Assembly: GCF_038066715.1 (NCBI RefSeq)
Contig: NZ_JBBUKT010000001.1
Coordinates: 930,001 to 994,000 of the forward strand
DNA length: 64,000 nucleotides
DNA from: Luteolibacter sp. Y139
Lineage (GTDB): Bacteria; Verrucomicrobiota; Verrucomicrobiia; Verrucomicrobiales; Akkermansiaceae
Direction of reading: 5' to 3'
A program made the position numbers and the translations under genes. Of this stretch, positions 24,001 to 41,361 are shown one piece after another; the first letter of the stretch is position 1; each line of letters begins with the position of its first letter. Below the pieces are notes generated by a model. That model made no database searches. It saw nothing but the letters and a program-made list of their open reading frames with translations, and had not been told where the DNA came from.

Positions 24001-25730
24001 ATCGTGGCGCTGTCGTCATTCGCTACCGGCGGACCGTCGTTAAGGTCCGCCCACGTGTAGGCGACGCGCACATTGTCCCACTGCACCGCCCCGGTTCCCC
24101 CGGAAGCGAGCCGGATGGCTGAGGACCAATTGTCACTCGTATGAGGATAGCTCGCGATCGGAGTGTTCGATCCTTCTCCTTGGTCGAGATTGGGATTCAA
24201 ATAGAGCGCCGCCACATTCGCGTCGAAGTCCAGCTTGCCCACGAGCGTGTATTTCACCCCGGGAACGGGGGCGATGCCGGAGTAAGACCACTGGTTCGTA
24301 TTAAGATCGTGAATCGCGAATTCGCGGACACCTGAGACCGGGTTCGTCGCGCCGGGAACCCCAAAGAGATAACGCTCCGTACCGAAATCATACGAGCTCG
24401 CACCGCTCCACGTGGTATCCGCCGAGCGGGTCATCTCGAACTTGTAGTAGACCACGTGAGACACGTAGTTCCCCTCTTGGTTCACTGAACCGGCGCGTTC
24501 GTCCGATCCCGCCTGAGCACCTTCGACCGGGCCATTGTATTCCCGCTTCGCACCGCTCTCCTGAGTCACAAGCACCCCCGATGTCACCTGTGGCGAACCC
24601 GCAGTGACATCCCAATCAGAGGGCTCACCCGCGTGACCGAGAAAGGGATCGTTCTCGGTGGAATTGTCGGCATCCCAATAAAGCCCTCCGCTCTTCCCCG
24701 CGATCGGACCATCGGCATAGTCAAACCGATCCCCGCCGACGAGACCCGGCGGATGGACGGCACCAGGGTACATGATCGGGTTGAGCGGATTTGTGCCGGC
24801 CGTGACCTCCGCTCCATCGGAGAAGCCGTCGTCATCGGAATCCGGGTCCTGCGGCTCTGTCCCGCGGAGATACTCGTCGATGTTCGAAAGGCCGTCCGAA
24901 TCGGCATCGAGGAGCGAATCGTTCGTACCCACCACCAGGCCATGCGTGGCCTCCCACGCATCCGGCATCCCATCATCATCCGTATCAGGATCGGTGAACT
25001 GGAAATCATTCCACGATGTCGCCACGGTGAGATCGTCCCACTGGCACGTGCCGCCCGAGGCCAGACGGACAGCGGTCGACCAGTTGGTTCCCGTGTACGC
25101 GCCACCCGCGTCGCACGAGTTGGCCCCCGTCGCATCGGTGTAAAAGTCGTTCGCGTCGGGATCAACCCACAGGCCGATGAAGTCCCGGTCGAAATCAAGC
25201 ACCGTCACGATGGTGCGCGTCGTATTGCTGACAGGAATGCCGCTGGAGTAGCGCGTCCCGGCCCCGGTGATCTCGCAACCATATTCCGTGGCTCCGCTGG
25301 GAACGCCGAAGAAAACCCGTTCCGTGCCGAAGTCATACGAACTGGCGCCGCTCCACGAACCACCGGAAACACGCGTCAGATTGAAGCGATAGAACACCCG
25401 CCCCTGCGCGCGTACCGCGCCGCTGCGCTCGTGATTGTCCTGGCCATCGTTGGAAGCATTGCCTGCTCCTTCGATGGTCCCGTTATACTCACGCTTGGCT
25501 CCCGAATTCGCCGTCACGAGCTTTCCCGAAACAACGGCCGGCGCGCCGACGACATTGTCCCAGTCCGACGGAAACGCGGTGGCAGTTCCTTGAAAGAGAT
25601 CACGGTTGAATCCCGTGCCACCGGTCTTTCCCGCGATGGCGCTGTTGTCTGGATAGGCGAAATCCTCCTTGCCGATCTCGAGCGCGTGAACCGGCGCGGC
25701 AACAAGCAGCGGCAAAAGAAGGAATCTCAT
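21027..25730 (-). CDS. Giant secreted protein: repeat modules, glucose/sorbosone dehydrogenase and diheme cytochrome region
   Basis: 1567 residues from the ATG at 25730 (signal peptide MRFLLLPLLVAAPVHA). Approximate order: module of unknown fold (20-265), thrombospondin-3 DxDxDG repeats (270-325), second module (330-563), cadherin-like NDDSA...VLDNDTG segment (570-655), a PQQ-type glucose/sorbosone dehydrogenase propeller (about 675-1090), then a region like the SO_2930/TIGR03806 diheme cytochromes with WSDRAEKRRW and two heme sites CMTCH (about 1257) and CAYCH (about 1335), and a C-terminal tail with EYRGSENLVDWVPL. An extracellular oxidase passing electrons to its own hemes is inferred. The frame to 25790 adds no signal peptide and is not used. 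Confidence 0.85.
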   Translation of the reverse strand: MRFLLLPLLVAAPVHALEIGKEDFAYPDNSAIAGKTGGTGFNRDLFQGTATAFPSDWDNVVGAPAVVSGKLVTANSGAKREYNGTIEGAGNASNDGQDNHERSGAVRAQGRVFYRFNLTRVSGGSWSGASSYDFGTERVFFGVPSGATEYGCEITGAGTRYSSGIPVSNTTRTIVTVLDFDRDFIGLWVDPDANDFYTDATGANSCDAGGAYTGTNWSTAVRLASGGTCQWDDLTVATSWNDFQFTDPDTDDDGMPDAWEATHGLVVGTNDSLLDADSDGLSNIDEYLRGTEPQDPDSDDDGFSDGAEVTAGTNPLNPIMYPGAVHPPGLVGGDRFDYADGPIAGKSGGLYWDADNSTENDPFLGHAGEPSDWDVTAGSPQVTSGVLVTQESGAKREYNGPVEGAQAGSDERAGSVNQEGNYVSHVVYYKFEMTRSADTTWSGASSYDFGTERYLFGVPGATNPVSGVREFAIHDLNTNQWSYSGIAPVPGVKYTLVGKLDFDANVAALYLNPNLDQGEGSNTPIASYPHTSDNWSSAIRLASGGTGAVQWDNVRVAYTWADLNDGPPVANDDSATMHHLGKARFKVLDNDTGLIARPSLAIDSPPAHGTATVNSDGTILYQHLSGTPATDTFTYKIQGAGSTLTDTGTVTIHFTANPRFDSAFVSMPSTPPVGELRLVDAFPGITFDSPHGFSTVPGDNKKLFVSEGDGRVFLIPDMAAPTKVQVLDISASVNHDNNEQAFKGIAVHPNWASNGQIYVTYNSNAHSVRLSRFTCQTTAPFTAGPEEIIIEQDCDDTIHNIGSCEFGPDGYLYVSFGDEGTQEDGHNNSQHVDRNLWSCIIRIDVDKRPGSLPPNADPGADTDPNGNDADLMIPRPGGVARYAVPPDNPLVGATTFNGIALNPGQVRTEIFVMGLRNPWQFSAEDNNGDGKVDEVWVGDVGRSNREEVDVFHPGNNGGWGWREGSAAGQRAGDLLNGAPESAATITPPLWDYGHGGGSLEGASITGGFVYRGTSLPDLTGKYICADYVSGNIWSVQRTSGAPVINRLAGEVAIVGLLPDPRTGDILLLDRGNNGTNQGTGGIKRLTIGTDDSNLPPTLAATNFFADLTDLSPNPGGQYYQPNLRFWSDRAEKRRWFLVNDATKTIGYSQDSPWSFPSGMIWVKHFDYPVAWETFTRTIDGQSYIDRRPVAGSPRRRLETRFLVKNDSGAYGISYRWNAVNGGSQTDAVLANDNGENVPVSITLDGAPTSVTWEIPSRAACMTCHTPEAGHALSFTMRQLNAPGSISGVSGNLLSALSSTGYLTGFSGNPASLPRHYRPDETAQSLETRVRSYLDVNCAYCHKAGGTGGGNWDGRAHLSLLETGLLNGATVDAPLHPDDRLVVAGNVPHSIIFNRITGANGYSRMPPLATTVPDLEAAELVAAWIHQDVHPYATYEEWREAEFGNVTTPQGDPAANPDGDGIDNLGEWAFGTNPGLADDSRATPVLLQVKPSAGQFRFSHRRLRMHGTAGLHYEYRGSENLVDWVPLSVTEEASVPDADPAYETVTLSISPGTLAGKSRLFLQLRVQP

Positions 25731-25776
25731 CGGATGCAGGCAAGGCATATCGGGAAGACGTGACGTTTGGACGAAA

Positions 25777-25805
25777 GGCCCGCCCTGCATCGAGCAAGGC
25801 GGGCC
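25777..25805 (-). terminator. Hairpin terminator after the 1085-residue surface protein gene
   Basis: Perfect 8-bp GC stem GGCCCGCC (25777-25784) / GGCGGGCC (25798-25805) with a 13-nt loop, 24 bp past the stop codon at 25830, followed on the minus strand by TTTCG. Probably ends transcription before the sugar-dehydrogenase gene. Confidence 0.65.
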
Positions 25806-25829: not shown

Positions 25830-28800
25830 TTACGGCGAGGCCGGACCGTCTTCCGCGCGGAAGAACACCTTCGGCGTCGTGCCGGGAGTCACCGGAATCA
25901 CAAACGGCTGCGGCGTGGTGCTGTCGAAGTTGAAGGCCGGGACCAGCGGCACGAACGACTGCAGGTTCGTGGAACTGCTCAGATGGTAGGTCTTGCCCGC
26001 CGGGATACCCGTCGCCGTGATGCTCATCGTACCGGCTCCAGCATTCAGGTTTGCGACCGAGAGATGGACCGGGCTGGGTGGCTCGCCAATCAACTGCCCC
26101 CAGGTCGTCGCCACCACCACGTCATCCCACTCGGTGTCGCCGGTGCCCGTGGAGGTGAGGCGAATGCCCGTGGCCCAGTTGGTGCCCGCATAGGTTCGGG
26201 TGACCAGGGCAGCGTTGGACGCTTCTGGTGTTGTCAGACTCGGGTTGACCCAGAGGGTCAGCATGTTTCCGGGATGATCCAGCTTGCCCACCACCGTGTA
26301 GGTTTGATCCGTCGCAATCGCCAGCGCGCCACCATCGGTGCTCACTGCCGCTCCTTCGCGGATACCCCACTGCGGGACTCCTGCATTGTCCACGATGCCA
26401 AAGGCCAGGCGCTCCTGATTGAAGTCATCGGGACCGAAGACACTCAGCGTCGCTCCCGCGCGCCGGGTCATCGTCGTCTTGAAGTAGACGACCGCGGACT
26501 TGAAGTTCGCCGCGTCATCGATGAATGCGCCCAATCGTGCTCCGGTGGGAGACGCATTGGAGCCTGCTCCTTCTTCCGGACCATTGAAGTCGCGATACGC
26601 GTTGGTTTCGCGCGTCACCAGTTTGCCCCCCGTGACTGTCGCCGTGCCATCCCAGTCGGATGGGGTCGAGTCGTGACCGAAAAAGGGTCCATTGAAGACC
26701 GCGTTCTCGTAGTCGAAATAGGTGCCGCCGGTGAGACCACCAACAGCTCCATCCGAATAGGAGAAGTTCTCGATTCCGATGAGTCCCAGCGGTGCGCCGA
26801 TCGTCGCGTTCGGATTCGTGGGGCTGGAGGTATTGCCACCGGTTCCTTGGACCTCGCCACCATCGGTCTGACCGTCATTGTCGGTATCCACCTTCAATGG
26901 ATCGGAGTGGTAGGTGAGGACTTCGTCTCCGTCGTTCACTCCGTCGCCATCGGTGTCAGCATTCAGCGGAGAGGTTCCCGCGGCGGCTTCAGCACCGTCT
27001 TTCAGTCCGTCGTTATCGCTGTCGTCATCCGTGGGATTGGTTTGAGCCACATACTCCTGGAGGTTCGTGCTACCGTCTGAATCCGCATCCGCACCAGCGT
27101 CATTCACGTTGGGATCGAAGCCCCACAGGATCTCGTAGGCATCCGGCATGCCATCGCCATCGCTGTCGGAAGGCAGCGAAGTCAGCGTGCTCCAGGTGTT
27201 ACCCACCACGAGTTGGTCCCAGCCGGTCGTCCCGGTGCCACCGGAGCCGAGGCGGAGGGCCGTCGCCCTCATTCCGGCCGGCGTCACGTTCAAGGTGGCC
27301 AGGATCGGAGAGGAGGCCTGCGGCTGATTGAGATTGGGATTCACCCAAAGGTCCACGCGGTCCGCCACGAAGTCATATCGCGCGACCAACGTCGCCGGGG
27401 TTCCCGTGATCGGTGCGACTCCGGAATAAACCGTGCCGACTCCTGTCTGCTCGACGCCGTACTCACGCACTCCCGAGATCGGGCTCGTTCCGTTAGGCAC
27501 CCCGAGGAAGATCTTCTCAGCACCGAAGTCGAAAAGGCTCAAGCCGCTCCACGAGGCACCCGCCTGGCGGTTGATGTTCACCTTCACGTAGAGCACATCA
27601 CTGCCATTGACTCCTGTCGCGGCCGCGTCTTCACGGTAGTAGCCGGACTTCTCCCCCACCACAGCCAGATTGCTGTTAGAGCCGGCGTGGAAGGCACGCT
27701 TCAAGGAACTCTCCTGGGTCAGCAGCGTGCCGGATTGGATCATCGGATTCCCGGCAAATGCGGTCCAACTGCTGCTCATCGTGGTGTGACCGAGGAAGGT
27801 TTCACCAAGCGCGCTGTTGTCGTAGTCCCAGCCCAAGCCATCGGAGAGTCCATTGGCCGGGCCATCGGCGTAGGTGTCGAAAAACTCCAGTGCGATCAGG
27901 TCCATGTTGCCATTCGTCGTCGGATCATCGCCGGCGTGGCCCGTCAAGGGCGAGGTTCCGAGCGCGATCTCCGTCGAGTCGGCGGTCCCGCCACCGTCGG
28001 TATCGGCGTTCAAGGGGTTGGTGAAATACACGTCGACCTCTTCACCATCGGTGAGATTGTCGCGATCCGTGTCCGCGAGGGTCGGGTTGGTGCCGGCGGT
28101 CTTTTCCCTCTTGTCGTCCAAGCCGTCTCCATCCGTATCCCCGGCAGTGGGAGATGTCCCATCAGTGAACTCGACCGAATTGGCGATCGTATCGCTATCG
28201 GGATCGCCCAAGGCGCCATTCGGGCCATTCTTGGCACCCGGCGAGGTTTCCCCGACGGTCCCATTGTCATGGTCGTCCAGGTTGTAGAGCGCTTCCCACG
28301 ATGCTGGCAGACCATCCTGGTCCGCATCCACGAAATCCTTGAGGCCAATGCTCACCGGATCGAGAGCCACCGTAAGATCGTCCCAAGTGCAGGTATTGCT
28401 GGAAGCAAGGCGCACCGCGGTCGACCAGTTGTTAGGCGTGTAGGCGCCGCCGGCATCGGCCGAGTTGGAGCCATCCACCGGATCGTAGTAGTCCGTGGCG
28501 GAAGGATCGACCCACAGGCCCATGTAATCGCGATCAAAGTCGAGGACCGCGACGAAGGTATGGGTCAGGTTATCGGCAGGAATCCCGCTGCGATAAGTCG
28601 TGCTTCCGGCGATCTGGCAGCCCCATTCGATCTGCCCCGAGACACCGTTTCCACCGGGTGATCCAAAGAACGCCCGCTCGGTGCCGAAGTCGTAGCTGCT
28701 GGCACCGGCCCAAGTCGTACCCGCGCCACGGGTCAGCGTGAAGCGGTAGAAGACCCGGCCCGCACCGCGCACCGCACCGGCCCGCTCGGTCTCATTGCCA

Positions 28801-29087
28801 TCACCACCAGCCGAGCCCTCGGTCGTGCCGTTATATTCGCGCTTCGCTCCACTGTTGTTGGTGGTCAGGGCATTCGAGGCGACCGTCGGCGTTCCACCGG
28901 TGTTGTCCCAGTCGGACTTGATCGTGGTGTGGGCTTTGGTGAGGTTGTTGAAGTCAAAGCCGGTGCCTCCGGTCTGGTTGGCGATGTTGCCGTTGGCGTA
29001 GGTAAAGTTCTCGGTTCCGACCACCTGGGCGTGGAGTGGAACGGCCGCCGCCCCTGACAGGAGGACGGGAAGGATCGTTTTTTTCAT
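25830..29087 (-). CDS. Large secreted protein with three repeat modules and thrombospondin-3 repeats
   Basis: 1085 residues, signal peptide MKKTILPVLLSGAAAVPLHA. Three copies of the shared module lie at about 20-245, 396-635 and 767-1002, each with the hallmarks GTENFTYANG-type start, KREYNG, ASSYDFGTERAFFG or FNQERLAFG, LWVNPSL and a closing W-D-x-L/V. Between them are calcium-type DxDGDG...DxDxDG thrombospondin-3 stretches (about 260-390 and 645-765). The last 80 residues (THLSSSTNLQSFVPLVP...VFFRAEDG) resemble the tails of neighbouring proteins. Role unknown; likely cell-surface or matrix. The leader upstream carries the repeated intergenic element. Confidence 0.8.
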   Translation of the reverse strand: MKKTILPVLLSGAAAVPLHAQVVGTENFTYANGNIANQTGGTGFDFNNLTKAHTTIKSDWDNTGGTPTVASNALTTNNSGAKREYNGTTEGSAGGDGNETERAGAVRGAGRVFYRFTLTRGAGTTWAGASSYDFGTERAFFGSPGGNGVSGQIEWGCQIAGSTTYRSGIPADNLTHTFVAVLDFDRDYMGLWVDPSATDYYDPVDGSNSADAGGAYTPNNWSTAVRLASSNTCTWDDLTVALDPVSIGLKDFVDADQDGLPASWEALYNLDDHDNGTVGETSPGAKNGPNGALGDPDSDTIANSVEFTDGTSPTAGDTDGDGLDDKREKTAGTNPTLADTDRDNLTDGEEVDVYFTNPLNADTDGGGTADSTEIALGTSPLTGHAGDDPTTNGNMDLIALEFFDTYADGPANGLSDGLGWDYDNSALGETFLGHTTMSSSWTAFAGNPMIQSGTLLTQESSLKRAFHAGSNSNLAVVGEKSGYYREDAAATGVNGSDVLYVKVNINRQAGASWSGLSLFDFGAEKIFLGVPNGTSPISGVREYGVEQTGVGTVYSGVAPITGTPATLVARYDFVADRVDLWVNPNLNQPQASSPILATLNVTPAGMRATALRLGSGGTGTTGWDQLVVGNTWSTLTSLPSDSDGDGMPDAYEILWGFDPNVNDAGADADSDGSTNLQEYVAQTNPTDDDSDNDGLKDGAEAAAGTSPLNADTDGDGVNDGDEVLTYHSDPLKVDTDNDGQTDGGEVQGTGGNTSSPTNPNATIGAPLGLIGIENFSYSDGAVGGLTGGTYFDYENAVFNGPFFGHDSTPSDWDGTATVTGGKLVTRETNAYRDFNGPEEGAGSNASPTGARLGAFIDDAANFKSAVVYFKTTMTRRAGATLSVFGPDDFNQERLAFGIVDNAGVPQWGIREGAAVSTDGGALAIATDQTYTVVGKLDHPGNMLTLWVNPSLTTPEASNAALVTRTYAGTNWATGIRLTSTGTGDTEWDDVVVATTWGQLIGEPPSPVHLSVANLNAGAGTMSITATGIPAGKTYHLSSSTNLQSFVPLVPAFNFDSTTPQPFVIPVTPGTTPKVFFRAEDGPASP

Positions 29088-29207
29088 GGGTTTTGGGTTT
29101 CGGGGTTTTTTGGGAGGAAATGGGAAAAGCCACCGCGGACATCGGCGCCGGGAAAGGGCGACCGCACGGTGGCAGGGAAACGGAAGATCAGGCGCGACGG
29201 CGCATCA

Positions 29208-29455
29208 TCGGGTTCGTTCGGAATGGGTTTCTCGGATCCGGCACGTCTCCACATGCCGGGGAGGGCACGTGGGTTCGTGCGTCTCCCATCCGGAGTCCGA
29301 CGTTTCGAAACGAACCCCGCCAAAAAAAATCAGGAACTTGCTAAACCCTCATAACCGCAGGCTCAGCGGTGAATGCGCGGGCGGAACCCGATCCGCCCGC
29401 GCATCCGCTCCGACCTCCGGCAGAACCCAATTTGCCGGAAGCGGGAAACTTATGA
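29208..29455 (-). repeat. Intergenic repeated element, copy A (upstream of the 1085-residue surface protein)
   Basis: About 250 bp, clearly alignable over its length with copy B at 34314-34558. In the minus direction: hairpin TCCGGCA/TGCCGGA, a perfect 13-bp stem at 29373-29404 (ATGCGCGGGCGGA, 6-nt loop), a GGGTTT stretch, then the motif with eight Ts and GGCGGGGTTC at 29313-29330, a conserved CGAAACGTCGGACT stretch, and a small hairpin near 29242-29256. It lies 5' of the gene starting at 29087. Nothing coding is seen in this 430-bp gap. Confidence 0.75.
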
Positions 29456-29474
29456 TGATCCACCTTGCCTTAAC

Positions 29475-29499
29475 GCCGGGCCGCCAGCGACGGCCCGGC
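29475..29499 (-). terminator. Hairpin terminator after the autotransporter-repeat gene
   Basis: Stem GCCGGGCC (29475-29482) / GGCCCGGC (29492-29499), 9-nt loop, 19 bp past the stop codon at 29519. No T-run follows, but the position favours a transcript end. Confidence 0.5.
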
Positions 29500-29518
29500 T
29501 TCGAGCAGAGACACCGGC

Positions 29519-32500
29519 TCAGTTCGGAGTCACCAGGAGATGAACGAACAGCTTGGCGTTGCCCGTGGGCAGCGTGTAGGAAACCGAGCTTCCATTATCC
29601 ACCGCGGAACCGGTCACGTCGGTCCAGCTAGTGAGATTGGTGGAGGTTTCGACGCGGTAGGTGCCACTGAAGCCCGCGGACTTCGGCCAGGTGATCTGAC
29701 CAGCCACCACGCTTGGATTCGCGGTGAACCCGGATCCCGTTTGACCCATGAAGTACTCGATGCCGTTCTGCACCCCGTCGCCGTCATAGTCCTGGCTTTC
29801 CGTCTGCCCACCGGCATTGGTCGCAGCCCATGAGCTGTATCCGCCAGTCGCCACCTGGACGGTCAGGACGCCAGTGCTCTGGGTGAAGGTCCACAGGTTT
29901 CCACCGGCAGTCTTGGTCCAGACGCCGGAGCTATTAGTGAAGCCAGCGACGCTGAAGGTGCCACCGTAGGTTTCGGTGAGCGATCCCACGTCCACGAGCG
30001 TCCAGCTGTTGCCAGCGGTCGTGTTGGCCGCGGTGGTGTCGATGTTGAAGCTGCCATCCAATTGCACCGAACCCGTTCCCGTCACCTTGTTGCTGACGCC
30101 GTTCGCCCCGATGACAAATCGCAGCTGGCCTGAAGCAGACAGGGTGAGCGTCCCACCGTTGACGGTGGTGTTCCCGGTGTAGGTGTTGGTTCCAGCAAGG
30201 GAAAGGATGCCCGCCCCCTGCTTGGTCAGCCCGCCACCCGTGCCGCCATCGAGCAGTGACGGATTAATGGTGATGTCATGGCCATCCGAGTCGATGACCC
30301 CGCCGCCGGACTTGACGGTCACGGTGTCGACGCCATTCATGAAGACGGCGTTCGCCGCGGAGCCAGCCTTGAGCAGTCCTCCATTGAAGTTGAAGGCGCT
30401 GGTGCCCGAGGCGCTGTCGAGGATGGCATTGGCGGTAAGCGTGCCGCCGTTGAGGTTCACGGTGCCACTGCTGTCCGCTGCGTCCCCGATCAGGAGACCG
30501 GTGGTGGATGCCGCGACAAAGGAACCGGTGCCCGAGATGGTCAGCGTGCCGCTTCCCAATTCGCCGACGTGCATGAAACGAGCGGCCGCAGCCTGTGTGA
30601 ACGTGCCGCCGGAAATCGAAAGCGTGCCGCTGCCGCCAGCAACGCGCCCGATGGCCATCCAGCCGTTGCCGGTGATTGTGCCGCCGGTCTGCGTGACGGT
30701 TCCCTGACCCCCGCTTCCGACCCGGAATTCCTGCTCGCCTGGGAGAGTGATCGAAGCCGAGTCCTGCACGGTCAGATTGCCGACCGAGCCGGCATTTCCT
30801 CCGACATACACACGGTTCGTGACGGTGGCCGTGGAGCTGTCCTTCATCACCATCGTTCCGATGGAGCCGCTGTTGATGCCGACGTTCACCTGCTGGAGGT
30901 TGAGGGCGGAAGTTCCGTTCAGGGTCACGTTGATCGTGGCACCATTGCTCTCGCCGAAGTTTCCGGTCGGCCCGCTGAACGTGGAATTGTTCATCGTCAG
31001 CGAGGAGATCGCCGAGTAGCCAACAACCCCGCCGTCGTATCCGAGCGAAATGCCACCGCCATTGGCGGTGATGGTGGAGCCGGTAAAGGTCACATCAGAG
31101 TGAAGTCCAGTGCTTCCGTTTCCGATGCCAATGGCGATCCAGTTTCCAGTGGTGAGGTTCGAGTTAGTGACCTCAAGCGCGGAGTTGATCGTGGAAGCCG
31201 GATTACCGAGCCACAGCTCGGCCGCCACGCTGTTCGCGCCGGTACCGGTGAAGGAAACCGTGCCTTCATAGATCCGGAGACCCTTGTTGACGGTGCCGAT
31301 GGCCTTCGCCGCGGTGCCGCCGAAGCCGAGCTTGCCCGCGCCGGTCTTGATCAGGTTGGAGGTCGGATTGGAAACGACCTCACCATCGAAGCGGATGTCA
31401 GCCGTAGTGGTGATGGCCGTGTCGATCGCCCCGAGCGTGAAGCCGCGATCGGTGGTGGTGGAGGAACCGGTGTAGGTGAGGCTGCCTCCGGTGAGGAGGA
31501 GGTTGGCAGCGCTCGCGGAAGCCGCACCGATGGAGCTCGGGCTGCCAGCGTTGGCGATACTGCTGATCGAGGTGGTGCCGCCCTTGAGCTCGGTGACGCC
31601 GGTGTAGCCGTTGGTGGTATTGAGCACCAGGGATGCGGTTCCCCGTTTCAGGACTCCCGTGGTGCCGTTGATGCTTCCAGTGCCGTTGAGCGTGTAGGGC
31701 ACCAGGGTGTTGTCGAAGGTCAGCGACGTCGGCGTGACGCCGATGTTCAGGGTCACGTCGCCTTGGGTCAGGCCGGTGACACCATCGTCGAACTGCGTGA
31801 CCCGTCCGTTGGTGTAGGCCGTCGGGCTTCCCGCGTTGAGCCAGTTGACCGTGGAGGTGTCCCAGATGCCGTTGACGGTGGCATCCCATTTGGGCTGGGC
31901 GAGGCCGGTGACTTGCAGCGAAATCAGACCCGTGCCGTTATCAACCACGGTTGCCGTGACTCCATTGGGAAGAGAGCCGGGCGTGACCAAGACGCTTCCG
32001 GAGCCGGACTTGGAGGTATACTCCACGAGCGGGATGCTGCCGAGGGTGATGTTGCTGTCCGCGATATTGATCGTGACCGGGCCGTTGAGAGCCAGCGATG
32101 CCACCTTGAGCGGAGCATAGTATGGATTGTCGAGTTCGTTCCCGAGATCGAAGCTCAGCGTGGTAGCTCCACTGGAGCCCAAGGTCAGCGAGTTCAATTC
32201 GCGAACGTCGAAATTGGTGATGGAGGAAACCTTGAGTGCAGCCGAATCCGCGACCGTGTAGTTCGCACCGCCGTATTTGGCGGCTTCGATCGCCAGCGTA
32301 CCACCGTTGACCGAGACGCTGCCGGTAAAGGCCGCGTTGACACCACTGAGTGCCAGGGTACCAGCGCCGGACTTGATGAGAGTTCCTGTGCCGCTCAGTT
32401 CCTGGGGAACCACGAGAGACTTGCCGCTGCTGTCGATCTTCAGGCCGCCGCCCTGGATTTCAGCGGTGGACAGGTTGCTGATGAAAGTGGCGGAGTCCGC

Positions 32501-34066
32501 CTTGGGCACGATCTTGGTGCCGTTGAAATAGGCATTTCCGGTGCCGGCGGTTCGGGTAATCGTGCCCACCTCGAGGGTGCCTCCGTTGAAGTTTGCCGTG
32601 CCCGTACCAGTGCCCGTCGCAAGGACCAGCTGGGTGGTGCGGAACTCCGCCGTGTTCGACAGGGTCAAGGCTCCGATCCCGCCATTGTTACCGACCACCG
32701 TGATACCACCGGTCACATTGAACAGGCCGCCGGTCATCGCGACGGTTCCATTGGCGGTGGCGCTATCGGCACCGATCACCACGTTGTTCGATCCACCCTT
32801 GGTGATCGTCCCGCCGCTCATGTTGAGGGTTCCCACGCCGCTTCCGTTGCGTCCGACCACGAACCACGTGTCGGAGCTGAGCGTTCCTCCGCTCATGGTG
32901 TAGGTGGCGGTCGAGGTGGAGCCCACCCAGAACTCGCCGTTCACGGTGATCGCCCCGCCCGTCTGGCTCAGGGTGCCGCCACCTCCGTTCCCCACCGCAA
33001 ATGCAGTGGCGTTGTTCGTCTTGTTCAGGGTACCACCCGAGATGTTGACCGTTCCGGTCGCGCTGGCGGCGTTGCCGATGAAGAATGAGTTGGCGACGGC
33101 AATCGTGCCACTATCGAGGTTCAGCACACCGGTGCTAGCCTGGGTGCCGACATGGAGCGGCCCGGTGACGGTGAGCGTTCCCGAAGTGTTCATGTTCATC
33201 GTCCCGGAGCCGCCCGAGCCGGCATCACCACCGCCGAGACGGTAGTTCCCCGAGACATTCATGCTTCCCGAGCTCAGGCCGAATCCCGTGAGAGTGCCGC
33301 CGGTCGTTCCGGTGTTGGCGAGGTTGATGATGCCTGATCCACCATTGTGGCCCACTTTCATCCAGCCGGTGCTGGTGACGGTGCCAGCCGAGATATCAAG
33401 TCTTCCGCTGCCACCGGCGTTAGCATTGCCCACATAAATATCGCCGTTGCTGGTGATCGTGCCACTTTCGAGATTGAAGCGTCCATTGCTATTGGTGGTT
33501 GCACCCACATGGACCTGAGCGGCGGTGATGGAGCCGGTAGTGTTCATGTTGAAGGTGCCGGTATTGCCCGTGCCACCATCTCCCGCCCCCACGCGGATCT
33601 GGCCGAAATTCCCGGTGGCACCCGCCGTCAAGCTGCCGGTGCCTTGGGCGAATCCGGAGATGCCCGTACCCACCACGGCGGTATTGGCCAGGTTGTAAAC
33701 GCCGGTGCCGCCATTGTTGCCGACTTTGATCCAGTTCCCGGTACCGCTCTGCGCCGTGCCTGCAGTGTGGTCCACCCGGCCACTGATTCCGGCGCCGTTG
33801 CCGACCAGAATGTCCGTCGGGGTTGCCGAAATGTTCGCTGAAATGGTGGCGATCGCACCCGTGTTGGTGATGATCACCGCCTGATCGTTGAAGCCGGTCT
33901 TGATGGGCACGCGGCCCGTGCTCCAGTTGGTCGCCGTGTTCCAATCCGCGGTGCCGGTATTGAGCCAGTTGGCAGCCAAGGCAACGGGTGCCGAGATCCC
34001 GGTGTAAATGATGGCGACGGAGGACGCGGAAAGGATTGCTCGGCGGTTTATTTTCGTGGGCTTCAT
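29519..34066 (-). CDS. Giant secreted protein with autotransporter-type beta-strand repeats
   Basis: 1515 residues from the ATG at 34066, which starts a signal-like segment (MKPTKINRRAILSASSVAIIYTGISAPVALA). The frame extends to 34219 without support. The body is G/T/S/N-rich and built of repeats of the form GxLxLSGxxxYTGxTxVNGGTL and TQTGGxITxxGxxxIGxxxGGxGTLxxSGG, matching the autotransporter-associated beta-strand repeat (TIGR02601) that forms beta-helices. No C-terminal autotransporter barrel is present. Near the end are DYDGDGVQNGIEYFMG (calcium-type) and ETSTNLTSWTDVTGSA, then a hydrophobic tail ending VHLLVTPN. Divergent from a Ser/Thr kinase; surface adhesion or matrix role inferred. 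Confidence 0.88.
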   Translation of the reverse strand: MKPTKINRRAILSASSVAIIYTGISAPVALAANWLNTGTADWNTATNWSTGRVPIKTGFNDQAVIITNTGAIATISANISATPTDILVGNGAGISGRVDHTAGTAQSGTGNWIKVGNNGGTGVYNLANTAVVGTGISGFAQGTGSLTAGATGNFGQIRVGAGDGGTGNTGTFNMNTTGSITAAQVHVGATTNSNGRFNLESGTITSNGDIYVGNANAGGSGRLDISAGTVTSTGWMKVGHNGGSGIINLANTGTTGGTLTGFGLSSGSMNVSGNYRLGGGDAGSGGSGTMNMNTSGTLTVTGPLHVGTQASTGVLNLDSGTIAVANSFFIGNAASATGTVNISGGTLNKTNNATAFAVGNGGGGTLSQTGGAITVNGEFWVGSTSTATYTMSGGTLSSDTWFVVGRNGSGVGTLNMSGGTITKGGSNNVVIGADSATANGTVAMTGGLFNVTGGITVVGNNGGIGALTLSNTAEFRTTQLVLATGTGTGTANFNGGTLEVGTITRTAGTGNAYFNGTKIVPKADSATFISNLSTAEIQGGGLKIDSSGKSLVVPQELSGTGTLIKSGAGTLALSGVNAAFTGSVSVNGGTLAIEAAKYGGANYTVADSAALKVSSITNFDVRELNSLTLGSSGATTLSFDLGNELDNPYYAPLKVASLALNGPVTINIADSNITLGSIPLVEYTSKSGSGSVLVTPGSLPNGVTATVVDNGTGLISLQVTGLAQPKWDATVNGIWDTSTVNWLNAGSPTAYTNGRVTQFDDGVTGLTQGDVTLNIGVTPTSLTFDNTLVPYTLNGTGSINGTTGVLKRGTASLVLNTTNGYTGVTELKGGTTSISSIANAGSPSSIGAASASAANLLLTGGSLTYTGSSTTTDRGFTLGAIDTAITTTADIRFDGEVVSNPTSNLIKTGAGKLGFGGTAAKAIGTVNKGLRIYEGTVSFTGTGANSVAAELWLGNPASTINSALEVTNSNLTTGNWIAIGIGNGSTGLHSDVTFTGSTITANGGGISLGYDGGVVGYSAISSLTMNNSTFSGPTGNFGESNGATINVTLNGTSALNLQQVNVGINSGSIGTMVMKDSSTATVTNRVYVGGNAGSVGNLTVQDSASITLPGEQEFRVGSGGQGTVTQTGGTITGNGWMAIGRVAGGSGTLSISGGTFTQAAAARFMHVGELGSGTLTISGTGSFVAASTTGLLIGDAADSSGTVNLNGGTLTANAILDSASGTSAFNFNGGLLKAGSAANAVFMNGVDTVTVKSGGGVIDSDGHDITINPSLLDGGTGGGLTKQGAGILSLAGTNTYTGNTTVNGGTLTLSASGQLRFVIGANGVSNKVTGTGSVQLDGSFNIDTTAANTTAGNSWTLVDVGSLTETYGGTFSVAGFTNSSGVWTKTAGGNLWTFTQSTGVLTVQVATGGYSSWAATNAGGQTESQDYDGDGVQNGIEYFMGQTGSGFTANPSVVAGQITWPKSAGFSGTYRVETSTNLTSWTDVTGSAVDNGSSVSYTLPTGNAKLFVHLLVTPN

Positions 34067-34182
34067 GCGATTCAAAGGTTCTGGGTCGGGGTTGGGAGAG
34101 AGAGGGAAAGCCACCGCCACCCTTCGCACCCAAAGCGGGCGATCGGCGGAGCGGTGACGGAAAGTCGGCTCAAATGCGCCGG

Positions 34183-34196
34183 CACATGGCCATGTG
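34183..34196. promoter_or_regulatory. 14-bp perfect palindrome CACATGGCCATGTG
   Basis: A perfect palindrome about 120 bp upstream of the autotransporter-repeat gene, in the divergent gap shared with a Ser/Thr kinase. Such dyads often bind homodimeric regulators, but no protein can be named and a chance palindrome of this length is not excluded. The rest of 34067-34313 shows no gene. Confidence 0.3.
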
Positions 34197-34313
34197 GCCG
34201 CGGTGCGCGCCATGATCACTCGTCACCAACACGGTGGCAGACGGCACGGCCTGACTCGTCACGGGCAGCAGGCCGGAGATGATCAAGGTGGGGAGCTGAG
34301 GGTTCTTCACTTG

Positions 34314-34558
34314 GGTTCGTTCAACTTGGGTTGGCCCGGACCAGACGCGTCTCCGCGTGCCCGGGAAAGCGCATGGGTCGTGCGCGTCCATTCCGAAGTC
34401 CGACGTTTCGGAAAGAACCCCGCCAAAAAAATGCGGGAACTTTGAGAAACCCTCCGCCTTGCGGAATCCGAAGGTGAATGCGCGGGCGGAAACCCGATCC
34501 GCCCGCGCATCCGCCCGACCTCTGGCAGAACCCAATTTGCCGGACGCGGGAAACTCGT
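34314..34558 (-). repeat. Intergenic repeated element, copy B (upstream of the autotransporter-repeat gene)
   Basis: Second copy of the element at 29208-29455. The 13-bp stem ATGCGCGGGCGGA is identical (34478-34510, 7-nt loop), the T-run/GGCGGGGTTC motif is at 34416-34432, and the CGAAACGTCGGACT stretch is kept. The remaining gap 34559-34785 up to the kinase start holds no gene I can support. It sits between a plus-strand kinase and the minus-strand surface gene; orientation of all copies points to the surface genes. Confidence 0.75.
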
Positions 34559-34785
34559 GATCCAGTGCACGGACGCTCGCGCGAAAGCGATACCGCTTCC
34601 ACGCGATCGCCGGGGATCTACTCCATGAGTCCGCCATCCGGCAGCATCTCCCGCCAACAAAACACCGCGCTGACAATTTTCCTCCCCACGGTTCGTCATC
34701 AACGGAGCCGCCGTCGATTGAGCTTGCGCGACGAAACCCCGATGCCTACCCCAGAAAAAAGGGAACCATTCCCGGCTTGCAGCCC

Positions 34786-37002
34786 GTGAACGAAGAAAGC
34801 CATCACGACGAGGAGATCAGCGGGGCGATCATGGAGGTCGCACTCTCGCTGGACGATCCGACCGCGCGACAGGCTTTCCTCGAGCGGGTCTTCATGAACA
34901 ACGAGGCTGAGAAGGAGGAAATGACCCTCCTCCTCAAGGCGACCGACGAGGCGGCAACGTTCTTCCTCGAGGCTCGCGAACAGCGGGCCAACCTCACCGC
35001 AACGATCCTCTCCGAAACACAGCAAGGTCGCCCACCCGGACCGCGCCGCTTCATCGATGGCGATGCGCCACCGGAGAAACTCGGCCCTTACCGATTGATC
35101 GCCCGGCTCGGTGAAGGTGGCGGCGGCGTGGTCTACGAGGCCGAGCAGGAACACCCGATCCGCCGGCGTGTCGCCCTCAAGATCGTCCGCATGGACGTCG
35201 AGAACAAGAGCGCGCTGGCACGCTTCGACATCGAGCGCCAGGCACTCGCGATGATGGATCACCCGAACATCGCGAAGGTCTTCGACGCAGGCACCACGCC
35301 TTCGGGGAGGCCTTACTTCGCGATGGAGTTGGTCACCGGCGAGCCCATCACGAACTACTGCAACCACCGCCAACTGGATTGCGTGGCTCGTCTCGAACTC
35401 TTCGTTCTCGTCTGCAATGCCATCCAGCACGCTCACCAGAAGGGCGTCATCCACCGCGACATCAAGCCGTCGAACGTTATCGTCACGCTTCAGGACGGCG
35501 TACACGTCCCGAAGATCATCGACTTCGGCATCGCCAAATCCGAGACGGGCGAATCGATCACCGCGCACGACCAGTTCTTCGGAACCCCGGCGTACATGAG
35601 TCCCGAGCAGGTGGCCCTCACTGGCATCGACGTGGACACCCGGAGCGACATTTTCAGCCTCGGCGTCCTGCTCTACGAGCTCCTAACAGGTTCCACCCCG
35701 CTCGATCGCTCGACCTGTCCCGACCTCAGCTTTTCCCAGATCCGCAAGTCGCTGCTCACTTGGGAAATGCTCCGCCCTTCCGAGCACCTCGCGAAGCTCG
35801 CCCCGGAAAAGCTGCGTTCGCTTGCGGACGAGCGGGGCACGCAGCCGGCTGGCCTCACCGGCTACGTGAAAGGCGATCTCGACTGGATCGTGATGATGGC
35901 ACTCGAGAAGAACCGGATGCGCCGCTACCAGACCGCCAACGGCCTGGGCGTCGATATCAAGCGCTTCCTGACCCAACAGCCGATCGCCGCGCATCCGCCA
36001 TCGAAGACCTACGTGCTCGCCAAGTTCGTCCGCCGGAATCGCCTGGCATTCGGCACCTCGGTTCTGCTCGTGACCTTGCTCGTCGGAGGCCTCGCCACCA
36101 CCGCCACGCTCTATGAACGCGAGCGCTCGGCCGCGGTCGAGCAGCTCCGGCTCAAGAACGAAGCCCAGGCGGCACGCCATGAAGAAAGCCGCCTCCGCGT
36201 TGAAGCGGATGCGAGGTCGAATGTCGCCCGCATTGCCTTCCTGCTCGATCAGGGCCTCATTGATGAAGCGGACGCGCTGCGCCAGCGGTATCCCCTCACC
36301 TCGATCGAGCCATCGCTCGAAGCAGCGGCGGTGTTCCGCTCACTCGGCGACTGGAACGCCGAGCACGGCCGCTGGACCCAGGCACTCCAGTGCTATCAGC
36401 TCCTGCGACAGGCCAATCTTTCCGGGGCCCCTCAGAAGATCCTGAACGGACAGGATCTGATGGCCATCACCGCGGCACTGCTCAAGAAGGAGCCTAACAG
36501 GTATCCGGAGTTTCGCGATGAAATGCTGAGGACCTATGCGCCTGCCGTTGGCACCGTCAACGCGGAGCATCTGCTGAAGGTCTGCCTGGTTCATCAGGCG
36601 GACTCAAGAATCCTCGGAGCTCTCCGTCCCGACGTGGACACGCTGGGCGATCCACGCAGCGCCACATTCCCCGCTTGGACGGCACTCTCCCTCTCGCTGT
36701 ACCAGCTCCGCAACGGAGACTGCGGCCATGCCCTCAGAACCTGCCAGTTCGGCCTAACCAGCCCGGAACGCAAGAGCTCGTGCGAGGCCTCGCTCGAAGC
36801 AGTCTCCGCCCTGACCCTCGCGAGGATGGGTAGCGTCGGGCCGGCGAAGGAAGCATTCGCCCGCGCTCGCGATCTGGCGAAGCGCTGCGATGGCAAGGAC
36901 TTCCAGCGCGGAGTGCCGGTCGGCCCGTGCTGGTTCGACTGGGAGATCGCGGAGCTGTTGATCAAGGAAGCGGGCCTGAGGGTTCAGGCTCTCTCGCGCT
37001 GA
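34786..37002 (+). CDS. Transmembrane Ser/Thr protein kinase (kinase 1)
   Basis: 738 residues from the GTG at 34786, chosen to match the start of its paralog at 41362 (M-N-x-x-HDEEIS). An N-terminal helical stretch (5-75) precedes a Hanks-type kinase domain (about 95-400): GEGGGGVVYEA, VALKIVRM (ATP lysine), HRDIKPSN catalytic loop, DFGIAKS and GTPAYMSPEQ. One transmembrane helix (about 417-438, FGTSVLLVTLLVGGLATTATLY) is followed by a helical, TPR-like outer or C-terminal part of about 300 residues. Clear overall similarity to kinase 2, but without an ECF sigma gene upstream. It probably phosphorylates unknown targets in response to an envelope cue. Confidence 0.92.
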   Translation: MNEESHHDEEISGAIMEVALSLDDPTARQAFLERVFMNNEAEKEEMTLLLKATDEAATFFLEAREQRANLTATILSETQQGRPPGPRRFIDGDAPPEKLGPYRLIARLGEGGGGVVYEAEQEHPIRRRVALKIVRMDVENKSALARFDIERQALAMMDHPNIAKVFDAGTTPSGRPYFAMELVTGEPITNYCNHRQLDCVARLELFVLVCNAIQHAHQKGVIHRDIKPSNVIVTLQDGVHVPKIIDFGIAKSETGESITAHDQFFGTPAYMSPEQVALTGIDVDTRSDIFSLGVLLYELLTGSTPLDRSTCPDLSFSQIRKSLLTWEMLRPSEHLAKLAPEKLRSLADERGTQPAGLTGYVKGDLDWIVMMALEKNRMRRYQTANGLGVDIKRFLTQQPIAAHPPSKTYVLAKFVRRNRLAFGTSVLLVTLLVGGLATTATLYERERSAAVEQLRLKNEAQAARHEESRLRVEADARSNVARIAFLLDQGLIDEADALRQRYPLTSIEPSLEAAAVFRSLGDWNAEHGRWTQALQCYQLLRQANLSGAPQKILNGQDLMAITAALLKKEPNRYPEFRDEMLRTYAPAVGTVNAEHLLKVCLVHQADSRILGALRPDVDTLGDPRSATFPAWTALSLSLYQLRNGDCGHALRTCQFGLTSPERKSSCEASLEAVSALTLARMGSVGPAKEAFARARDLAKRCDGKDFQRGVPVGPCWFDWEIAELLIKEAGLRVQALSR

Positions 37003-37017
37003 GCGGAATCATTGCAA

Positions 37018-37041
37018 ATTCTTTGGCGGGTTTCTCCCGCC
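37018..37041 (+). promoter_or_regulatory. TTTGGCGGG motif (site D) with small hairpin upstream of the halogenase gene
   Basis: ATTCTTTGGCGGGTTT at 37018-37033 is the plus-strand relative of the T-run/GGCGGG motif of copies A, B and C. GGCGGG (37025-37030) and CCCGCC (37036-37041) can also pair as a 6-bp hairpin 22 bp after the kinase stop. It lies 95 bp before the halogenase ATG; a 17-codon open frame (37068-37121) between them may be a leader peptide or chance. Confidence 0.4.
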
Positions 37042-37127
37042 ATTGACGGATTCTTTTCGATAAACCCATGAAGCCCACACCTCCCGTGCTTGCCGCGACT
37101 CCGGCGTGCCGCCTCCCGTAGCACGCC

Positions 37128-38639
37128 ATGCAGAAACCCATCTCCACCATCGTCGTCCTGGGCGCGGGATCCGCAGGACTGCTAGCCGCCTTGACCTTGA
37201 AGAAGAAGCTGCCGGCAATGGTGACGGTGCGGATTCTGCGCAGTCCCCGCATCGGCATCATCGGCGTCGGCGAAGGCACCACGCCGAACTTCCCGTCCTT
37301 TTTGTTCGACTACCTGAAGCTCGATCAAGAGCGGTTCTTTCGCGAAGTGCATCCCGTCTGGAAGCGCGGCATCCATTTCATCTGGGGACCCCGCGGTGAG
37401 TTCCCCTATGCCTTCGGGAATCACTACAGCGTCTCGGACACCGGCTTCAGCCGGTCCAATGGCTTTTATTCGTGGGAGAAGCCCTACGAATCCGGCTTCA
37501 TCGGCCGTCTCATGCAGCAGCGAAAGGTATTCCTGCCGGATGAAAACAACCAGCCCAGGATCGATGATTCATACGGCTTTCATCTGGAGAATCCCCGCCT
37601 CGTTGCTTGGCTGGAAGGCGAAGCCAAGCGGGCCGGCGTGACGATCACCGATGCGGAAATCACCGATGCTGCCCGGGATGGCGAACACATCACTCATCTC
37701 ACGCTCGAAGATGGCGGCACCGTACAGGCGGACTTCTACGTGGATGCCTCAGGCTTCCGCAGCGAACTCTTGCGCGGCATCTTGGAAGAGCCCTTCGAAT
37801 CCTTCGCTGACAGCCTGATCTGCGACCGTGCGGTGGTGGGCGGTTGGGAACGTCAGGAGGGCGATCCCATCCAGCCATTCACCACGGCCGAGACCATGCC
37901 CGCGGGATGGAGCTGGCGGATCGATCACCGGCACCACGTCAACCGCGGCTACGTCTACTCCTCCGCCTTCACCAGCGACGAGGAGGCCGAGCGCGTCTTC
38001 CGGGAGCGGAATCCCTTGGTGAAACAGACGCGTGTGGTTCCCTTTATCTCCGGTCATTACCGACGGTCGTGGGTGGGAAACGTCTGCGCCGTCGGCAACT
38101 CCGCCGGATTTGTGGAACCCATGGAAGCCACCGCGCTGATGGTGCTCTGCATGGAGCTGCGCGCTCTGGCCGCCAGTCTGTTAGAGGGCCGGCTGGAAGT
38201 GAGACAAACCTTGGCTGATCTCTACAACCGTTTCTCTGCAAGCGTCTGGGAGGAAATCCGTTCCTTCCTGATGATCCACTACAAGTTCAATACGCTGATG
38301 GACACGCCGTTCTGGAAGCACTGCCATGAACTACCCCTGTCGCCGGACGCCGCCCGCATGGTGACCTTCTACCAGGAGAACGGCCCGAGTTCATTCGCGC
38401 ACGATATGCTCCTGCCCCGTGCCTCCCAATTCGGCATCGAAGGCTGGTGGGCACTACTCGTCGGACAACGCGTGCCGTGGAAAAACCAACCGGTCTCACC
38501 TCAGGAGCGCCAACGCTGGGCAGAGCGCCAGCTACGGCTCGAGCGGGCAGTGCAAATGTCACTCACCACCGAACAGGCGCTCGCGATCGTTGACGACCCC
38601 GCCTATTGGCAGGCAGCCGCAACATCGCAGGTTGCTTAG
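37128..38639 (+). CDS. Flavin-dependent halogenase (tryptophan 7-halogenase family)
   Basis: 503 residues. FAD-binding GAGSAG (12-17) and IIGVGEGTTPN fit the flavin halogenase family. Lysine K78 (VWKRGIHF) and glutamate E332 (VEPMEAT) align with the catalytic Lys79 and Glu346 of PrnA. The WxWxIP motif is altered: W260-S-W262-R-I264-D265, so the proline is aspartate. Expected activity is chlorination or bromination of an aromatic substrate with a flavin reductase partner not seen here. Substrate unknown and no biosynthetic cluster is around it. It follows kinase 1 and its stop overlaps the convergent surface gene by 4 nt. Confidence 0.88.
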   Translation: MQKPISTIVVLGAGSAGLLAALTLKKKLPAMVTVRILRSPRIGIIGVGEGTTPNFPSFLFDYLKLDQERFFREVHPVWKRGIHFIWGPRGEFPYAFGNHYSVSDTGFSRSNGFYSWEKPYESGFIGRLMQQRKVFLPDENNQPRIDDSYGFHLENPRLVAWLEGEAKRAGVTITDAEITDAARDGEHITHLTLEDGGTVQADFYVDASGFRSELLRGILEEPFESFADSLICDRAVVGGWERQEGDPIQPFTTAETMPAGWSWRIDHRHHVNRGYVYSSAFTSDEEAERVFRERNPLVKQTRVVPFISGHYRRSWVGNVCAVGNSAGFVEPMEATALMVLCMELRALAASLLEGRLEVRQTLADLYNRFSASVWEEIRSFLMIHYKFNTLMDTPFWKHCHELPLSPDAARMVTFYQENGPSSFAHDMLLPRASQFGIEGWWALLVGQRVPWKNQPVSPQERQRWAERQLRLERAVQMSLTTEQALAIVDDPAYWQAAATSQVA

Positions 38640-40588: not shown

Positions 40589-40684
40589 GGGCGGGGCAAG
40601 AGACGGGGTTTCAGGAAACTCGGGATCATCGCGTCGGACCGGCCCGGACATCAGGCCATGAGAAGATTTCGCCATCCCGCTACC

Positions 40685-40701: not shown

Positions 40702-40797
40702 CTGAAGTGCACGAAATTTCCCGACTAAACCCTTCCCCGCGAGCGGGGCTACGATTCCGCTTGCGCCCGAAATCCCAGCGACTTACCCGAACAAGGG

Positions 40798-41349
40798 ATG
40801 GGAACGACGACCCAAGGTCCCGAAATCAGAGCGGACGAGTTTTGCTTCTCTTCCGCCGAATTGCTGCCCGTCGTATACGACGAGCTGCGGCGCTTGGCCG
40901 CGTTCCGCCTGGATCGCGATAGCGCCAGCAAGACGCTCCAGCCCACCGCGCTCGTCCACGAGGCGTGGATCCGGCTTTCCGAGATCGATGGGAAGATGTG
41001 GCAGAGCAAGGAGCACTTCTTCAATGCCGCCGCGCAGGCCATGAGACGCATCCTCGTGGACCGCGTCCGGGCCCAATCGCGGCAGAAGCGGACACGCCCC
41101 CCCGAGAACCTGGACGCCGGCGTGTTCGAAGACGACTCGCACATCCTCCTGATCCACGACTGCCTGACCAAGTTGGAAAAGATCGACCCCTACTCCGCGA
41201 AGGTCGTGCTGTTGAAGTTCTACGGCGGACTGAGCAGCGAGGAGATCAGCGAGGTCACCGGCCGCAGTATGCGCTCGGTGGAACGGCAATGGATGTTCGC
41301 CAAGGCAAAGCTCTATCGCCTGATTCAGGAAGATCAGCAGAAGGAATAG
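40798..41349 (+). CDS. ECF sigma factor paired with a Ser/Thr kinase (PF07638/TIGR02999-like)
   Basis: 183 residues. Region 2 (ELLPVVYDELRRLAAFRLDRDSASKTLQPTALVHEAWIRL) and region 4 (KIDPYSAKVVLLKFYGGLSSEEISEVTGRSMRSVERQW) are typical of the ECF group often encoded directly before protein kinases in Verrucomicrobia and Planctomycetes. Its stop is 12 bp before the ATG of kinase 2, so the kinase probably controls it or is co-expressed with it. It is divergent from a surface protein gene whose upstream DNA carries site C, a possible target promoter region. Confidence 0.92.
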   Translation: MGTTTQGPEIRADEFCFSSAELLPVVYDELRRLAAFRLDRDSASKTLQPTALVHEAWIRLSEIDGKMWQSKEHFFNAAAQAMRRILVDRVRAQSRQKRTRPPENLDAGVFEDDSHILLIHDCLTKLEKIDPYSAKVVLLKFYGGLSSEEISEVTGRSMRSVERQWMFAKAKLYRLIQEDQQKE

Positions 41350-41361
41350 CCTCCGGTGCCC

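Follow-up and report, generated by a model that had tools for sequence, protein, structure and literature searches.

Why should two intergenic gaps that lie 5 kb apart, each in front of a giant surface-protein gene, resemble each other along their length? The question is raised by a window of 64,000 nucleotides of DNA from Luteolibacter sp. Y139 (contig NZ_JBBUKT010000001.1, positions 930,001 to 994,000), in which a first-pass annotation, made from the letters alone, had proposed two copies of an undescribed structured element. The two gaps, here called copy 1 (29211-29456) and copy 2 (34314-34561), do align over their full length on the minus strand, with 80% identity over 248 aligned positions (E value 3.4e-53), and each precedes a large surface gene on that strand (25830-29087 and 29519-34066, respectively). 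Across the 7.1-Mb genome we found no third copy, the remaining matches being scraps of 15 to 33 bp. The shared parts that had been listed are present as well: both copies have the perfect 13-bp stem (ATGCGCGGGCGGA/TCCGCCCGCGCAT), the block formed by a T-run and GGCGGGGTTC, and CGAAACGTCGGACT, and the TCCGGCA-type stem is perfect in copy 1 and bears one C-A mismatch in copy 2. Both copies fold more stably than dinucleotide shuffles (z score −5.2 for copy 1 and −2.9 for copy 2, with 0 of 200 shuffles equal in each case). The element is intergenic, folded, and covarying, as proposed, but it is not chiefly one structured RNA: its best-conserved part is a promoter-like two-block DNA signature with fixed spacing, TTTTNTTGGCGGG-N12-A(C/T)GNCGGA. 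We consider it probable, from sequence comparison, that both copies are duplicated promoter regions, with folded leaders, of a surface-protein regulon under a kinase-linked extracytoplasmic function (ECF) σ factor.

The element belongs to a conserved genomic setting. When 195 genomes of the family were searched with each copy, four candidates per genome being scored, the element was recovered in a genome of the same genus, G039, over nearly its whole length (76% and 74% identity) and, for the hairpin part only, in G108; the second query alone gave two short scraps in other genera. Using the G039 copy as a query against 18 genomes of the genus added a partial match in G071, where the contig ends after the proximal signature and before any downstream gene. 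In G039 and G108, the element stands directly before a PEP-CTERM protein gene with a GTG start (Pfam PF07589 in G108; tail recognized by eye in G039), and it is divergent from a kinase gene in the former and from an ECF σ factor and a kinase in the latter. The neighborhood in the window matches, with a kinase, a halogenase-family enzyme, a TSP3 protein, an ECF σ factor, and a second kinase (34777-43581). The link to surface-gene starts, on which the first-pass annotation had made its proposal depend, is found in other genomes too. That annotation had also named the simplest alternative, namely, that the gaps are alike solely through a recent segmental duplication and have no function. A distance of 5 kb indeed separates the copies, and what look like remnants of one lost gene are seen at both, but the promoter blocks of the two are fully conserved against 80% identity overall, the orthologous element is 74 to 76% identical in G039, and the same layout recurs at the same place in G039, G108, G019, G071, and G006, which contradicts a recent duplication as the sole cause and leaves this reading highly improbable. 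Instead, the comparison suggests that the control region was duplicated and that the PEP-CTERM gene was lost from the present genome; a 46-codon frame between copy 2 and its surface gene could be a remnant of that gene or a translated leader peptide.

In the aligned spacers, the signature reads TTGGCGGG, then 12 variable bases, then ACGTCGGA, and both blocks of the proximal site (P2) are invariant across six aligned leaders. The conserved unit around copy 2 exceeds the gap noted earlier, with a second signature (P1, 34630-34662) in tandem 231 bp upstream. Such an upstream second signature occurs in six spacers—copy 2 of the present genome (G000), G039, G108, G019, G071, and G006—and is inexact, with one or two mismatches, in the last three. 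The spacing is distinctive: among 66 TTGGCGG words in ten cluster loci (166,555 bases), the second block followed at a spacer of 12 in 18 cases with at most one mismatch (13 of them exact), against 28 such matches in total, and no more than 4 each, for the 27 other spacers from 3 to 30. Wherever a gene follows, the signature is oriented toward it, and at proximal sites with an intact gene start it lies 64 to 118 nucleotides before the likely start codon (chosen by judgement), as in the 38636-40675 gene, where it precedes MNGKILC by 79 nucleotides; the distances are longer from copy 2 to the start of its autotransporter-repeat (PATR) gene, from copy 1 to the start of its TSP3 gene, and for the G006 site. 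A weaker form precedes the halogenase gene in the window, and a site resembling it lies 68 nucleotides from the start of the G108 halogenase gene. A pair of blocks with constant spacing that faces the gene is what an ECF-type promoter would show, and the geometry TTTGGC-N16-CGTC resembles that of ECF promoters. Two other promoter classes were considered and rejected: promoter scans gave no σ70-like promoter in either gap, and by inspection all six leaders lack, ten bases past the GG of TTGGCGGG, the GC that a σ54 site (−24/−12 pattern GG-N10-GC) would have.

The signature is largely confined to one cluster. The strict pattern TTTTNTTGGCGG-N13-AYGNCGNA, allowing at most one mismatch, gave 16 matches in the 18 genus genomes and none when reversed; 12 of the 16 lie inside the cluster, including all four in the present genome. 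The four off-cluster matches (G079 C2, G108 C174, G071 C31, and G093 C201) were treated as chance; near that on G071 C31 there is merely a partial match to the protein encoded at 21027. In 260 family genomes, the same pattern gave 35 matches against 19 for reversed controls (counted by hand), with 13 in the cluster and two more in G061, which belongs to a different genus; the first of these stands in front of a gene whose product has, by eye, a PEP-CTERM-like tail, and the second separates a kinase from the gene divergent to it. All six zero-mismatch matches fall inside the cluster. Two entries of the 24-row list of sites (L187 +18156 and L192 −17774), which lack the T-tract and have two mismatches in the second block, were set aside as chance. 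The signature also follows the ECF gene: an orthologue with at least 87% identity occurs in 6 of the 18 genus genomes, our own included, and a signature lies within about 350 bp of it in all six, while more distant relatives (60 to 73% identity) in G006, G061, G079, and G133 are accompanied by recognizable variants. In G061, the signature lies 70 nucleotides before a PATR homologue that is divergent from a kinase, and in G079 it precedes a gene with a PEP-CTERM-like tail, likewise divergent from a kinase. The family-wide ECF search, which scored at most 13 candidates per genome, gave 10 of the 260 genomes, a lower bound. In the present genome, seven other ECF paralogue loci (L206 to L212; E ≤ 1e-10; 97.9 kb) held 52 TTGGCGG words, none of which had the second block, with one mismatch allowed, at a spacer of 12. 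The signature thus appears, as far as these genomes go, specific to the neighborhood of one σ factor. At the G061 locus L192 (9229-10029), where the signature precedes a gene for a protein with a PEP-CTERM-like tail, the 20 kb examined held no ECF or kinase match, and the regulon may in that genome reach past the cluster.

This σ factor has the hallmarks of kinase-activated ECFs. In the available parts of the literature, such ECFs (group ECF43) are described as lacking the acidic DAED motif, with threonine phosphorylation restoring its charge (PMC8103513, PMC8999054), and threonine in the DAED position is the phosphosite described for EcfP and EcfK (PMC8103513, PMC8999054, PMC13147305). In the window, a Hanks-type kinase gene adjoins the ECF gene, and DAED is replaced by the uncharged QPTA, with threonine at the phosphosite position. 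An alignment of σ region 2.2 shows threonine at the third DAED position in 89 of 89 rows and no acidic residue at any of the four positions. Both kinases of the cluster—A, directly after the ECF gene, and B, divergent from copy 2—have a hydrophobic, probably membrane-spanning segment near residue 423, and queries with either match the same kinase genes in relatives. A serine/threonine kinase homologue adjoins the ECF gene in all seven of the other loci of this type (L206 to L212), and at five of these seven, weak or strong matches to PATR or TSP3 surface proteins were seen nearby, which suggests parallel signaling modules with separate promoter codes.

Several observations weigh against the promoter reading or narrow its basis. 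With respect to the signature, (i) the loci of the spacing test include those from which the signature was read, and the whole-genome search is therefore the more independent evidence; (ii) the other 20 of the 35 family-wide matches have no explanation and roughly equal the background of 19 reversed controls; (iii) a looser pattern, TTGGCGGG-N12-ACGTCGGA with at most two mismatches, gave 11 matches in the present genome, 3 of them in the cluster, and 5 when reversed, so that the specificity of the strict pattern depends on including the T-tract; (iv) the −10-like block varies (ACGTCGGA, ATGGCGGA, AATCCGCA, and TTGTCGCA), with one or two mismatches at the G006, G079, and G133 sites; (v) copy 1 has no P1; (vi) the G079 site is about 8 kb from its ECF gene; and (vii) among the listed sites, none points at the ECF gene itself. 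With respect to the proteins, no ECF gene stands beside the kinase nearest copy 2 in either G000 or G039; 80 of the 89 rows of the σ alignment are the best 80 of 94 loci, two rows are loci taken twice, and one search word (ALVHEAWI) covers the fourth residue of the motif, although not the threonine. The phosphosite analogy is imperfect too: according to the available part of PMC13147305, the T51A variant of EcfK is still functional and further sites are proposed, and the phosphorylation step is for this reason an analogy here. Finally, a bipartite, strongly conserved site at the genes of one cluster could also be bound by an activator or repressor, and sequence alone does not separate these two kinds of protein from a σ factor. 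We nonetheless regard an activator or repressor site as improbable: the signature is asymmetric, keeps one spacing, points to the gene at the distances given above, and tracks one ECF gene, its geometry is that of ECF promoters, and, besides the second ECF gene of the cluster, no other DNA-binding gene was noticed among the cluster genes, not all of which were scanned.

If the signature is a promoter, what is the role of the hairpins that first drew attention to the gaps? In the tandem loci, two hairpins lie between P1 and P2: H2, which holds the 13-bp stem, in six of six, and H1 in five of six (absent in G108). No hairpin of this type was found in eight single-site regions by either a covariance model (R1) or a perfect-stem search, and the difference between 6/6 and 0/8 gives a Fisher P value of 3e-4, with the reservation that the regions are related and not independent. 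The perfect-stem search (stem of at least 9, Watson-Crick pairs only) by itself detects H2 in four of the six tandem loci, missing those of G019 and G006 because their H2 holds G-U pairs. Copy 1, which keeps H1, H2, and P2 as expected of a partial duplicate, was excluded from this comparison; if it is entered among the single-site regions, as one that has hairpins, the latter fraction becomes 1/9. Across seven related sequences, 94.4% of the H1/H2 cells are paired (0 of 500 shuffles reach this), six pairs differ at both partners (mean of the shuffles, 1.9; as many in 1 of 500), and the covariation score is 0.221 (0 of 500). The compensatory changes that the first-pass annotation had hoped for are therefore present in both main hairpins, whereas further pair types are no more frequent than in shuffles (449 of 500 reach the count). 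Model R1, trained on the seven copies, yielded no other convincing copy among the 150 candidates scored in each of the 18 genus genomes, out of about 1,900 to 5,800 first-look candidates per genome, and distant copies may be missed; its extra matches were a weak one in G133 (E value 0.01, a terminator-like hairpin after a gene) and the opposite strand of the same hairpins. A generic genome-wide hairpin repeat is not supported by this search. An intrinsic terminator was rejected for the 13-bp hairpin as well, with no T-run following it and none listed there by terminator scans.

These data bear on whether the element is mainly a structured cis-regulatory RNA, such as a riboswitch- or attenuator-like leader, with the conserved blocks forming part of its fold. 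The pairing and covariation of H1/H2, a hairpin model to which, of all the candidates scored, none but its seven training sequences fits well, and the negative fold z scores of the P2 leaders in six of six loci (−1.3 to −4.7) are all in its favor. Yet the best-conserved blocks, TTGGCGGG and ACGTCGGA, recur at the eight single-site regions that have no H1/H2, the covariation comes from seven sequences that are all related and shows no excess of further pair types, and two leaders barely beat their shuffles (23 and 19 of 200 equal). The strand signal is mixed: the surface-gene strand has four G-U pairs, and reading the opposite strand would turn four A-C cells into G-U, although H2 alone gives three to none in favor of the surface-gene strand. 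The T-G to C-G change reported at 29242-29256 was only partly right, as inspection and folds show that the copies differ in stem register there; the stem sequences of the first leader hairpin also differ between genomes. A known Rfam family was ruled out, in line with the earlier statement that none fits: at gathering cut-offs, the whole window contains two tRNAs and nothing else, and a relaxed search confined to the copy 2 region (34200-34780) gave a single sub-threshold match (E value 0.17). On balance, we regard a mainly RNA-based element as improbable beside the promoter region that we favor.

A stronger competitor concerns the hairpins themselves, which may act as DNA, as an inverted-repeat operator or transcription insulator. 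The 13-bp hairpin is upstream of P2 and would therefore be transcribed into mRNA only from the distal promoter or by read-through. In all six tandem loci, H2 lies 40 to 69 nucleotides before the −35 block of P2, a tighter range than its 48 to 137 nucleotides after P1, and for this reason an operator that controls P2 has to be weighed seriously against an RNA element of the P1 transcript. Palindromes bound by dimers also show paired changes, and the H2 core TGCGCGG is largely conserved. Against this, the G-U pairs of H2 (three on the surface-gene strand and none on the other) fit RNA, and an operator would not usually have stems of 11 to 17 pairs or be accompanied by a second hairpin that differs in sequence. 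We see a DNA-level role as a real possibility, if the lesser one.

Taking the kinase-linked promoter reading as our working model, the following sequence of events can be proposed. One or both transmembrane serine/threonine kinases (34777-37002 and/or 41356-43581) would sense an outside cue and phosphorylate the QPTA threonine of the ECF σ factor at 40798-41349, which would restore the negative charge needed for RNA polymerase binding. The activated ECF would recognize the two-block signature (a −35-like TTTGGC, 16 nucleotides, and a −10-like CGTC) at 29296-29328, 34399-34431, 34630-34662, and 40668-40700, and a weaker form of it at 37023-37050, and would switch on the surface-protein genes and the halogenase-family gene. 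Transcripts from P2 would begin with a folded leader of about 80 to 100 nucleotides, and H1-H2, between P1 and P2, would probably tune the P1 transcript or separate both promoters. After the putative duplication and loss of the PEP-CTERM gene, the copies would now precede the PATR gene and the TSP3 gene. One may go further and speculate about a two-stage switch of surface display, in which the kinase-activated ECF drives tandem promoters, H1-H2 acts within the long transcript as a new cis-acting RNA and determines how much long mRNA is made relative to short mRNA, and each of eight ECF-kinase pairs has a private promoter code for its own giant surface proteins; we hold this extended version to be rather unlikely.

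The proposed system has partial precedents. As far as the available parts of those reports go, it resembles EcfP/PknT of Vibrio parahaemolyticus, EcfK/PknS of Xanthomonas citri, and group ECF43 in gene arrangement and in the replaced DAED motif, and it differs from the two former pairs in its predicted targets, which are surface proteins and a halogenase-family enzyme instead of a type VI system or polymyxin resistance. Further differences from EcfP and EcfK are the Verrucomicrobiota host, the signature with its tandem sites and hairpins, and the phosphorylation, which is predicted here by analogy. Another parallel is the PrsK/PrsR/σ54 site, which, in the part of Haft et al. (2006; PMC1569441) available to us, is conserved DNA in the long spacers preceding PEP-CTERM genes, with a distribution that follows one set of regulators; unlike that site, the present signature has no −24 GG/−12 GC, and an ECF and serine/threonine kinase pair replaces the histidine kinase and enhancer-binding regulator. 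The ECF of the window scores above the cut-off of TIGR02999 (Sig-70_X6), a family model that is silent on promoters and targets. According to the same part of Haft et al., further regulators and motifs of PEP-CTERM genes were still awaiting discovery, and our finding offers a testable answer for one Verrucomicrobiota group, in which a σ factor, its kinase, and a promoter code are all named. For a kinase-linked ECF σ factor outside the Proteobacteria, both a promoter and a set of targets can now be predicted. Our literature search, which left subscription journals largely uncovered, found no report linking PEP-CTERM with an ECF σ factor, and an earlier report is possible; the available part of PMC7293339 draws no link between extracytoplasmic function σ factors and exosortase. 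Most likely, the element is undescribed, and the kind of regulation, by a kinase-linked ECF, is already known.

Table 1. Features of the surface-protein cluster and its proposed control regions (window coordinates)
Feature	Position	Strand	Evidence
Double hairpin H1+H2 of copy 1	29368..29441	-	Fold; 89.2 bits with model R1 (training sequence)
Double hairpin H1+H2 of copy 2 (perfect 13-bp stem in H2)	34473..34546	-	Fold, pair counts; 79.3 bits with model R1 (training sequence)
Promoter-like site P2 of copy 1 (proximal), TTTTTTTGGCGGG-N12-ACGTCGGA	29296..29328	-	Zero-mismatch pattern match
Promoter-like site P2 of copy 2 (proximal), TTTTTTTGGCGGG-N12-ACGTCGGA	34399..34431	-	Zero-mismatch pattern match
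Promoter-like site P1 (distal), upstream of copy 2, TTTTGTTGGCGGG-N12-ATGGCGGA	34630..34662	-	Zero-mismatch pattern match
Promoter-like site between ECF gene and 38636-40675 gene, TTTTTTTGGCGGG-N12-ATGGCGAA	40668..40700	-	Zero-mismatch match; orthologous site in G039
Promoter-like site 77 nucleotides before halogenase gene, TTGGCGGG-N12-TTGACGGA	37023..37050	+	3 mismatches to TTGGCGGG-N12-ACGTCGGA
Folded 5' leader of copy 1, downstream of P2	29208..29295	-	Fold of 29222-29294, z −4.7, 0/200 shuffles equal
Folded 5' leader of copy 2, downstream of P2	34314..34398	-	Fold of 34325-34397, z −1.3, 23/200 shuffles equal; hairpin GCGCA/TGCGC
ECF σ factor, DAED replaced by QPTA, proposed promoter reader	40798..41349	+	TIGR02999, 158.5 bits (cut-off 126.15); PF07638
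Serine/threonine kinase A, one predicted transmembrane segment, directly after ECF gene	41356..43581	+	HRD and DFG motifs, hydrophobic segment
Serine/threonine kinase B, one predicted transmembrane segment, divergent from copy 2	34777..37002	+	PF00069; HRD, DFG, hydrophobic segment
Surface-type protein, 1085 amino acids, TSP3 repeats, downstream of copy 1	25830..29087	-	Pfam PF18884; orthologues in G039, G108, G101, G019, G006
Autotransporter-repeat (PATR) protein, 1515 amino acids, downstream of copy 2	29519..34066	-	PF12951, TIGR02601; 40%-identity homologue under same motif in G061
Putative remnant MMRRRA* of PEP-CTERM gene tail	29188..29208	-	Resembles LVRRRRL*/LFTRRRR* tails at same place in G039/G108
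46-codon frame between copy 2 and PATR gene	34170..34310	-	VKNPQLPTLIISGLLPVTSQA...CRRI* versus VKYALLPTLITSGLLPVASQA of G039; signal-peptide-like start, RR-type tail
Tryptophan-halogenase-family flavoenzyme	37128..38639	+	PF04820, E value 2e-96
TSP3 surface-type protein, likely start near 40588 (chosen by judgement)	38636..40675	-	PF18884
Downstream cluster gene, 1587 amino acids, cadherin/Ig-like, GSDH, TSP3	21027..25790	-	Domain matches; orthologues in G039, G108, G006
Second ECF σ factor, cluster end, keeps EAED motif	20444..20998	-	TIGR02989-like, 123.4 bits versus cut-off 124.55

Three features of the neighborhood may be recorded beside these results (Table 1). The second ECF gene (20444-20998) closes the cluster, and it does so likewise in G039, G108, G101, and G019. 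The halogenase-family gene (37128-38639) lies within a surface-protein cluster and has a similar signature here and in G108; the substrate of its product could be a surface protein or a matrix component. At the gene starts at 29085-29125 and 34070-34100, and in the L029/L030 leaders, an AACCC-rich stretch lies upstream and no obvious Shine-Dalgarno-like sequence was seen by eye, which suggests a different mode of translation start.

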